From contig NZ_BMZD01000002.1 in assembly GCF_014652615.1 (NCBI RefSeq), forward strand, positions 62,001 to 126,000: a stretch of 64,000 bases of DNA. Reading direction: 5' to 3'. Both the position numbers and the translations under genes were made by a program. This DNA is from Novosphingobium arvoryzae. Its GTDB lineage: Bacteria > Pseudomonadota > Alphaproteobacteria > Sphingomonadales > Sphingomonadaceae. Positions 39,304-41,477 of this stretch are shown piece by piece (position 1 is the first letter of the stretch; the number at the start of each line of letters is the position of its first letter). Below the pieces are notes generated by a model, which was not told the origin of the DNA, made no database searches, and saw only the letters and a program-made list of their open reading frames with translations.

Positions 39304-40071
39304 TTATTCGGCAGCGCCTTCGACGACGGCTTCTTCAGCCACCGGCTCGGCCATGGCGCCGATGTCGGCACCCGAATCGACGATCGCTTCGCGGCCGCCC
39401 TTCTGCGCGGCGGCAGCAACCGCTTCGCAGTAAAGGCGGATGGCGCGGCTGGCGTCGTCGTTCGCCGGGATCGGGAACGCGATGCCATCGGGCGAAACGT
39501 TGGAATCGAGGATCGCGACGACCGGGATACCCAGGACGTTGGCTTCCTTGATCGCCAGTTCTTCCTTGTTGGCGTCGATCACGAACATCACGTCCGGGAT
39601 GCCGCCCATGTCGCGGATGCCGCCCAGCGACAGTTCCAGCTTGTCACGCTCACGCGTCAGCTGGAGCACTTCCTTCTTGGTCAGGCCGGTGGTGTCGCCC
39701 GCCAGCTGCTCTTCCAGCGCCTTGAAGCGCTTGATCGAACCCGAGATGGTCTTCCAGTTGGTGAGCATGCCGCCCAGCCAGCGGTGGTTGACATAGTGCT
39801 GGCCGCAAGCGCGCGCGGCCTGGGCGATCGGCTCCTGCGCCTGGCGCTTGGTGCCGACGAACAGCACCTTGCCGCCGCGCTGCACGGTGGCCGACACGAA
39901 GTCGAGCGCGCGGGCGAACAGCGGAACGGTCTGCGACAGGTCGAGGATGTGGATTCCGTTGCGGGCGCCGAAGATATACGGCTTCATCCGCGGGTTCCAG
40001 CGGTGGGTCTGGTGGCCGAAGTGGGCACCGGCTTCGATCAGCTGATTCATCGTGACGACAGGAGCCGCCAT
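39304..40071 (-). CDS. rpsB: Ribosomal protein S2
   Basis: S2 (255 residues from [20 protein letters not shown]) of the small subunit. Conserved blocks include [16 protein letters not shown] and [12 protein letters not shown]. An AGGA ribosome site precedes the ATG at 40071. The acidic Glu/Ala-rich C-terminal tail is usual in alphaproteobacteria. It is the promoter-proximal gene of rpsB-tsf. Confidence 0.97.
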
Positions 40072-40294
40072 AGGTAATTCCTTTCCGGTTTGAACCTCTG
40101 GGAAGCAGGCACCGTGCGGCATCTCCGCTGCGGAACCGGTATGGGTGCTTCCCATGTGGATTTGCCCGGATCCCGGACCCGCACAGCGCGAATCCCTTTC
40201 CGGACGGGGCGGCCCCTAACCCATGAAAACCGGGAAATCCAGCCTTTAACGCTGCCCGGTCACGGCAAAAATCGCGCTGGTCGGAAAAAACCGC

Positions 40295-40323
40295 TTGACG
40301 CGGATAGAACAAAAAGAGAACAT
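40295..40323 (+). promoter_or_regulatory. Putative promoter overlapped by an SOS box
   Basis: TTGACG (40295-40300) and GAACAT (40318-40323) are spaced by 17 bases, matching a sigma-70 promoter with a weak -10. The LexA box lies between and over these elements, where a repressor would block RNA polymerase. Confidence 0.55.
40307..40321 (+). promoter_or_regulatory. LexA (SOS) box, alphaproteobacterial type
   Basis: GAAC-AAAAAGA-GAAC exactly matches GAAC-N7-GAAC, the reverse complement of the established alphaproteobacterial LexA motif GTTC-N7-GTTC. It sits 115 bases upstream of the small membrane-protein gene. Confidence 0.8.
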
Positions 40324-40369
40324 TGTCCTATCAAGCGAGTGGCTGAAACAATCTAAGCACAAAGCGAAG

Positions 40370-40378
40370 TTATCCACA
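40370..40378 (+). promoter_or_regulatory. DnaA box
   Basis: TTATCCACA is a perfect consensus DnaA nonamer; a weaker copy (CCCTCCACA) follows within about 15 bases. It lies between the SOS promoter and the small gene, so DnaA could influence this transcript. One box does not make an origin. Confidence 0.6.
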
Positions 40379-40435
40379 AGCCCTCCACAGCGAGTTCACA
40401 GGTGTGCGAACACCCCTGCCAAGGATGCCAGCGTG

Positions 40436-40687
40436 ATGACCGGACTGATGCTGATCGCCCTGTTTTCTGCCACTGCCCTGATCGTGGCCGGGGCCATGCG
40501 CGCCACCTGGCGCGCTCATGGCCGCCAGGCGCTGACCATCCGGGCGCAGCTGAACGCCTGCCCGGCCCGGCGCGAAGTGCGCTGGACGATCCGCAATGTC
40601 GGCGTGCCCAGCCGGATCAACGTGCTGGACTTCCCCGTCAGGCAGTCGGCGGTGCTGGCTCCGCAGCCGCGGCCCGCCGCCGCCTGA
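40436..40687 (+). CDS. Small single-pass membrane protein under putative LexA control
   Basis: This 83-residue protein has one N-terminal transmembrane helix (~2-20, GLMLIALFSATALIVAG), then a basic cytosolic region rich in Arg (MRATWRAHGRQ, RREVRWTIRNVGVPSR) and an Ala/Pro tail. Third codon positions are nearly all G/C, as in real genes here. AAGGA lies at ribosome-site distance; a GTG at 40433 is an alternative start. Its 3' end overlaps the convergent pssA by 50 bases. I do not recognise the family. The upstream LexA box suggests DNA-damage induction, and size and topology recall SOS-induced division inhibitors such as Caulobacter SidA, but no sequence similarity is claimed. Confidence 0.7.
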   Translation: MTGLMLIALFSATALIVAGAMRATWRAHGRQALTIRAQLNACPARREVRWTIRNVGVPSRINVLDFPVRQSAVLAPQPRPAAA

Positions 40688-41477
40688 CCCGGCCATACAG
40701 GATGATCGCAACCGGCAGCAGCGCCAGATAGACCGCACAGATCGCGATCAGGGTCCACCACGGTTCGGTGAGCAGCGCGGCGGCGACCAGCCCGAACAGC
40801 GCCAGCACTTCAAGGCGCACCGCGCGGCGCGGACGGAGCTTCCCCCAGGTCAGCGTCGGCAAGGCCGAAATGAGCAGGAAGCCCACGAACACCAGCCATC
40901 CGCCAACCAGCAGCGGATTGCGGAACACTTCGCTGTCGACCGCCGGCCAGGCAGCAGTCGCGGGCGCACCGCTGCCCGTCACGATCCACAGGTACATCGG
41001 CAGGAACGCCAGGCCCGCGCCCACCGGCGCGGGAACGCCGGTCAGGAAGCCAGCCGCCTTGCGCGGCTCGTCGGCCATGTCGATCCGGGCATTGAAACGC
41101 GCCAGTCGCAGGGCGCAGCCGATGGCAAAGGCCAGGGCGGCAAACCAGCCCAGGCGCGGCAGATCCTGCAACGACCACAGGAACAGGATCAGCGCCGGAG
41201 CGACGCCGAACGAGACATTGTCGGCCAGGCTGTCGAGCTCGGCCCCGAAGCGGGACTGGGCCTTGAGCAGCCGGGCAATCCGGCCATCGATCCCATCGAG
41301 CACGCCCGCGGCCACCACGGCCAGGATCGCCTTCTCCCACTCCCCCGTCACGGCAAAGCGGATGCCGGTCAGGCCCATGCACAGCGCGGCGGCGGTAATC
41401 GCGTTGGGCACCATTGCCCGCAGGGTCAGCCCGCCCGGCAGCGGGCCGGGTTCGGGCGACGGCGCGGTCACTGGCAC
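40638..41477 (-). CDS. pssA: CDP-diacylglycerol--serine O-phosphatidyltransferase
   Basis: PssA makes phosphatidylserine from CDP-diacylglycerol and serine. The 279-residue polytopic protein has the CDP-alcohol phosphotransferase motif DGIDGRIAR ... [15 protein letters not shown]. The C-terminus is Arg/Ala-rich. It starts at a GTG (41477) inside the psd 3' end (10-base overlap), the reverse of reaction order but the common gene order. Confidence 0.94.

Follow-up and report, generated by a model that had tools for sequence, protein, structure and literature searches.

A rapidly changing small membrane protein gene behind a conserved LexA box in sphingomonads: a candidate transient SOS division brake

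A gene of 83 codons, located between rpsB and pssA in a 64,000-nucleotide stretch of the Novosphingobium arvoryzae genome (hereafter referred to as the window), is preceded by a LexA box that is conserved with it across the family surveyed, and control of this conserved protein-coding gene by LexA is considered very probable, approaching certainty. The gene product is predicted to be a small, LexA-repressed single-pass protein of the inner membrane, conserved across the sphingomonads, and its architecture makes it a reasonably probable candidate for a transient brake on cell division during the SOS response, comparable to SidA of Caulobacter.

Membrane inhibitors of small size that are induced by the SOS response appear to have originated more than once, with sequences that can outrun homology searches. 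Nearly all copies of the present gene, distributed over 74 of the 77 genera sampled, were missed by direct protein search and were recovered through synteny and the operator. In this group, where no SulA exceeded the cut-off, the gene could supply the SOS division brake.

The locus and its promoter

The small gene (40436-40687, plus strand, including the stop codon at 40685-40687) starts with an ATG at 40436, which is preceded by a Shine-Dalgarno-like AAGGA (40421-40425, plus strand) that is retained in the nearest relative; a GTG one codon further 5', at 40433, is a possible alternative start. The gene is flanked by rpsB, encoding ribosomal protein S2 (39304-40071, minus strand; TIGR01011 over its cut-off), which is divergent and served as the synteny anchor, and by the convergent pssA, encoding CDP-diacylglycerol--serine O-phosphatidyltransferase (40638-41477, minus strand). 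The match of the latter to NCBIfam TIGR00473, at 93.3 bits, is just below the cut-off of 107, and its 3' end shares positions 40638-40687 with the small gene. A first-pass annotation of this DNA had described an 83-residue protein and placed it at 40295-40687; these coordinates are those of a 130-residue TTG-started frame that begins inside the promoter and had to be given up, while the 83-residue frame from 40436 is retained as the likely gene.

The promoter reported in that annotation is present on the plus strand at 40295-40323, with TTGACG at 40295-40300 and GAACAT at 40318-40323 separated by 17 nucleotides, and the LexA box GAACAAAAAGAGAAC, of the form GAAC-N7-GAAC (40307-40321, plus strand), overlaps both the spacer and the -10 element. 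The pattern GAAC-N7-GAAC has four matches in the window against 1.19 expected, a number reached in three of 100 shuffles, and the spacers of the remaining three matches are G+C-rich. The box thus carries little weight when the window is considered by itself, and its real support is comparative.

Conservation of the box and the gene

A direct search with the 83-residue protein in 199 genomes of the family gave matches in two genomes, namely its own copy and one at E 8.7e-4, which was taken as spurious since its neighbourhood, on inspection by eye, codes for an M23-like peptidase. As direct searching was nearly blind, rpsB was used as a synteny anchor, and about 1.5 kb upstream of rpsB was surveyed at 118 loci, including that of the window, representing 77 of 96 genera; the label sphingomonad for the surveyed family rests on one relative, a Novosphingobium.

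An exact box in outward orientation is found in 107 of these 118 regions, compared with three on the opposite strand and seven for a control pattern (CAAG/CTTG) with both strands pooled. The box is preceded by TTGAC at a distance of 9-12 nucleotides in 93 of the 107 boxed loci, and seven have no TTGAC within 30 nucleotides. Among the 11 loci that lack an exact box, four carry a one-mismatch box after TTGAC together with an ORF of the same type. For the remaining seven, pssA was located in six genomes, four of which (L162-L165) have a box and a transmembrane ORF ending in Ala-Ala beside pssA; no such cassette is present beside pssA in the other two (L161 and L166). Counted by genus (n = 77), the box is exact at rpsB in 69, carries one mismatch in one, is situated at pssA in four and is found at neither site in three, the gene being detected in 74. 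An ORF of at least 45 residues with a strong hydrophobic segment, starting no more than 250 nucleotides from the box, was identified in all 106 scorable boxed loci, and the same kind of one-transmembrane ORF is seen in 1.4% of 2120 dinucleotide shuffles.

Conservation of the box in orthologous loci had been set beforehand as a point on which the proposal could be refuted; it was borne out at rpsB (107/118) and, for four of six other genomes, beside pssA. The LexA control put forward in the first-pass annotation is thus strongly supported as a prediction by the conservation of the box with the gene. A function of the box in the expression of rpsB was rejected, since it lies more than 600 nucleotides from rpsB in ten loci and since the cassette is situated at pssA, away from rpsB, in four genomes.

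Two GAAC-N7-GAAC boxes, 27-28 nucleotides apart, were observed in 12 of the 118 loci (L009, L011, L012, L023, L025, L026, L028, L031, L032, L041, L119 and L120), an arrangement that would suit especially tight repression by LexA. Outside the family, none of 20 rpsB loci from elsewhere in the order has the box; one of these loci is only 414 nucleotides long. A search for pssA in 18 of these 20 genomes located it clearly in 17, and in three of the 17 (L169, L171 and L183) a LexA-type box followed by a transmembrane ORF of 52-60 residues was observed within 1.5 kb beyond the 3' end of pssA. These ORFs are possibly distant counterparts of the small gene, perhaps in the ancestral arrangement.

LexA-type boxes elsewhere in the genome

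The pattern GAAC-N7-GAAC occurs 94 times genome-wide, compared with 71 occurrences of a reversed control pattern, so that many of the 94 will be due to chance. Twenty of these sites, chosen mostly for A+T-rich spacers, were examined and the downstream ORFs were tested at ten. Eight of the tested boxes are situated 17-86 nucleotides upstream of ORFs identified as uvrA, recA, imuA, mmcB, an S24 peptidase gene, radA, pdeM and a gyrB/parE-type gene, and two precede ORFs with weaker identifications (RmuC-like and radical-SAM); most of the NCBIfam scores are below full-length cut-offs because the translated pieces are partial. In addition, two boxes are located just upstream of lexA (C3:178305 and 178323, with lexA at 177579-178262). 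Elsewhere in the same genome (L121, C1:376000-378000), a LexA-type box is followed by a 62-residue open frame in which, by eye, the N-terminal part of the L124 S24 peptidase can be recognised and which may be a truncated UmuD-like copy.

The protein and its C-terminus

Members of the family range in length from 50 to 153 residues, with a median of 85. No Lys or Arg precedes the transmembrane segment in 104 of 106 members, the tail carries a net positive charge in 103, and a second transmembrane segment is found in none of the 106. Under the positive-inside rule this charge pattern predicts an N-out, C-in topology, which would probably place the tail on the cytosolic side. An AlphaFold2 prediction from 64 family members consists of one helix (residues 2-41) followed by coil, with a mean pLDDT of 87.5, a pTM of 0.48 and block pLDDT values of 91-98 across the first 50 residues. 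The earlier description of a single-pass protein with a basic cytosolic part is therefore supported for the one transmembrane helix and the basic C-terminal part, the cytosolic location being predicted from charge alone.

The 83-residue protein has no match in Pfam and one in NCBIfam at E 0.22, far below the cut-off. Comparison of 64 members with Pfam gave scattered weak matches only, the best being E 0.0062 in one member, with no LysM and no partner domain among them, nor any match to a known inhibitor. The first-pass annotation had based the proposed role on architecture, without sequence similarity.

The protein ends in Ala in 104 of the 106 members and in Ala-Ala in 97, and none of the shuffles has an Ala-Ala end. 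The copy in the window terminates in Ala-Ala-Ala (40676-40684, plus strand), for which we propose the function of a cytosolic ssrA-like degron, on the basis of the family C-termini, a codon-position comparison (see below) and the tmRNA tag of this genome, ANDNEALALAA, whose final ALAA is comparable to the Ala-Ala ends of the family. Given the predicted topology, the Ala-Ala would be situated in the right compartment for such a signal.

Selection and the overlap with pssA

Purifying selection on the ORF, likewise set in advance as a point of possible refutation, was assessed over 41 non-independent pairs with at least 50% identity, with the last 22 codons treated apart. Outside these codons, the differences at codon positions 1, 2 and 3 number 798, 662 and 1400, respectively, and the 35 computable pairs have dN/dS values between 0.09 and 0.72, six being saturated; purifying selection is thus seen over the set. 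Within the last 22 codons there are 260, 235 and 403 differences at the three positions and dN/dS is as high as 1.22. Selection appears weaker in the nearest pair, formed with a Novosphingobium metagenome-assembled genome (L222) at 69% identity, where dN/dS, calculated from few changes, is 2.03 for the 17 codons shared with pssA and 0.61 for the rest of the gene. An 83-residue ORF begins at the aligned ATG of this relative, and its frame and length are kept by compensating indels.

At 104 of 106 loci the 3' end of the small gene runs into pssA, 101 of these loci having a single relative frame, and in this common frame the second codon base of the small gene corresponds to the pssA wobble position. 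At the last Ala codon, 106 of 108 members (the 106 scored loci and two one-mismatch loci) have C at the pssA wobble position, whereas the wobble base of the small gene itself varies (C in 71, T in 32, A in three and G in two). The possibility that the terminal Ala is forced by the coding of pssA is ruled out on this ground; the residue is kept by the small protein and not by pssA.

DnaA-box-like repeats in the leader

The leader of the small gene contains TTATCCACA (40370-40378, plus strand), which fits the DnaA-box consensus TTWTNCACA, followed on the same strand by two weaker DnaA-box-like repeats, CCCTCCACA (40381-40389) and GAGTTCACA (40392-40400), at offsets of +11 and +22. TTWTCCACA is present in 51 of 106 leaders as against 0.06% of 3180 shuffles, and TTWTNCACA occurs 52 times in forward and three times in reverse orientation in 10.8 kb of leaders, compared with two and one in 157 kb of the surveyed regions outside the leaders. 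A second copy of TTWTCCACA is located at +11 in 28 of the 51 loci, at -11 in six and at +22 in five, while every offset other than a multiple of 11 is seen in no more than two. A one-mismatch TTWTNCACA is carried by 19 of the 55 loci without TTWTCCACA, and the leaders of these 55 are shorter (median 94 versus 109 nucleotides; 85 nucleotides or less in 23 of 55 versus 0 of 51). An array of TTWTNCACA-like boxes in helical register is thus found in part of the family. The N. arvoryzae genome has 26 TTWTCCACA sites, with 15 for the reversed control. Two of these 26 DnaA-box-like sites, about 80 nucleotides apart and in opposite orientation, stand immediately in front of a gene for a CcrM-type methyltransferase (L223, C4:248600-252600).

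The folding energies of the leader RNAs are unremarkable (mean z -0.5; nine of 106 below -2), and the three Rfam matches on the leader are all far under their gathering scores. In view of both observations, a reading in which TTWTCCACA would act at the level of DNA is preferred over an RNA element. The repeats may be DnaA boxes that add an input from the replication state at about half of the loci; if they bind DnaA, a single promoter would couple the initiation of replication to the checkpoint for DNA damage.

Probable function

The division brake proposed here would operate through the geometry of the promoter, in which the box lies on the -10 region, so that bound LexA would block RNA polymerase until DNA damage releases the promoter. 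The N-terminal helix would then insert the protein in the membrane, where the septal synthesis complex FtsW/FtsI/FtsN would probably be held inactive, as has been proposed for SidA and YneA. The conserved Ala-Ala on the cytosolic tail would be recognised, in the manner of an ssrA tag, by ClpXP or an AAA+ protease like it, and the brake would thereby be gone once LexA re-accumulates; the leader repeats may supply their replication-state input in about half of the loci. This reading is favoured because a task of the SidA/DidA/YneA type is consistent with the control, size and topology of the protein and with its proposed turnover signal. The C-terminal Ala-Ala, the existence of known LexA-controlled membrane inhibitors and the distribution of SulA (PF03846), which is over the cut-off in none of 99 family genomes with one sub-threshold match, fit a role in division inhibition without proving it.

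SulA of E. coli is a soluble, short-lived FtsZ inhibitor of division induced by the SOS response; the present protein would share with it the induction, the short life and the inhibition of division, and differs in being a membrane protein without a Pfam match. Compared by description, SidA is similarly a LexA-controlled small transmembrane protein of an alphaproteobacterium, but has about 29 residues, in contrast to the median of 85 residues, the basic tail and the terminal Ala-Ala found here. SidA of Caulobacter crescentus and DidA of Caulobacter are described as small proteins of the membrane with FtsW or FtsN as the point at which they halt septal synthesis, SidA acting on FtsW (PMC4211646). 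DidA is likewise a small membrane division inhibitor produced after DNA damage, but didA is reported to be induced by DriD independently of SOS (PMC4211646), whereas the sphingomonad gene has a LexA box. In Bacillus subtilis, the transmembrane domain of YneA is reported to bind TM7 of FtsW, with septal synthesis being stopped, and the protein is short-lived, being a substrate of two membrane proteases, CtpA and DdcP; both YneA and the mycobacterial ChiZ bear a LysM domain (PMC13396833). These are, like the protein proposed here, SOS-induced small membrane division inhibitors, YneA being also quickly removed, but no LysM was found in 64 members of the sphingomonad family, and the tail is predicted to be cytosolic. 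The available part of the published account of SOS genes in Sphingopyxis TFA names no such gene, and no sphingomonad SOS small membrane protein is described in the titles and abstract openings of the papers retrieved.

Some observations count against the division brake. The LysM domain of YneA is reported to be required for blocking division, its transmembrane part alone being insufficient (PMC13396833), and the small protein has no LysM. In addition, selection is weak in the nearest pair, dN/dS reaches 1.22 in the tail, and three of the 77 genera have no copy at rpsB or pssA. The lack of a sequence match to a known inhibitor, the missing box at the 20 rpsB loci from the rest of the order and the silence of the Sphingopyxis TFA account on such a gene also count against it.

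The main rival explanation, which appears unlikely, is an SOS membrane toxin of the TisB type, which would depolarise the membrane and slow growth or favour persistence, with the divisome not being its target. TisB of E. coli is also a small membrane protein controlled by LexA, and a one-transmembrane product under LexA would be compatible with this role. So would the second box that 12 of 118 loci carry 27-28 nucleotides away, as this would befit a harmful product, and the convergent pssA transcript, which could serve as an antisense RNA. However, TisB, which is controlled by an antisense RNA, has about 29 residues, whereas the present family has a median of 85, a tail of net positive charge and a terminal Ala that is conserved, and the leaders (mean z -0.5) lack the unusual structure of type I toxin leaders. 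Also unlikely is an SOS-controlled adaptor or regulator of some other membrane process, such as envelope synthesis, a membrane protease or, beside pssA, phospholipid synthesis. Its attraction lies in the position of the cassette beside pssA in four of six genomes lacking the copy at the rpsB site and in the pssA overlap at 104 of 106 loci, and SOS-controlled membrane factors are known, HigX of Caulobacter being described as another (PMC13384398). Overlapping genes are, however, hard to separate, which could by itself explain the linkage to pssA, and no partner domain was found when 64 members were compared with Pfam.

If the transcript mattered more than the protein, PssA would be lowered by SOS-induced transcription that enters pssA in the antisense direction, a role with which the convergent overlap at 104 of 106 loci and the relative frame shared by 101 of these 104 would agree. 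We consider it highly improbable, since the transmembrane helix and the C-terminal Ala are conserved while third codon positions vary most, and since a pssA wobble of C in 106 of 108 last codons, next to a variable wobble of the small gene, argues for selection on the protein. A functionless ORF or box arising by chance might be suspected from the three of 100 window shuffles that match the box count and from the nearly empty direct protein search, but is scarcely credible given a box in 107 of 118 syntenic loci and an ORF in 106 of 106, compared with 1.4% of shuffles.

The division brake is retained as the preferred reading. A more elaborate form of it is offered tentatively, as possible though rather doubtful: a family-wide, two-signal division checkpoint gene in which LexA on the -10 region, responding to DNA damage, and an 11-bp-phased DnaA-box array, present in about half of the loci and responding to the state of replication initiation, would together govern a membrane brake with an Ala-Ala degron for quick release, the whole representing a new family of SOS inhibitors hidden by very fast sequence change.

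A conserved hairpin in the rpsB leader

A separate observation concerns the leader of rpsB on the minus strand (about 40097-40158), where a ten-pair hairpin is kept in all 14 aligned loci, these having been selected from a larger set. Rfam gave no above-threshold match at the hairpin. Four of its pairs are changed on both sides with the pairing retained, and the hairpin is possibly a leader element of S2 that has not been described before.
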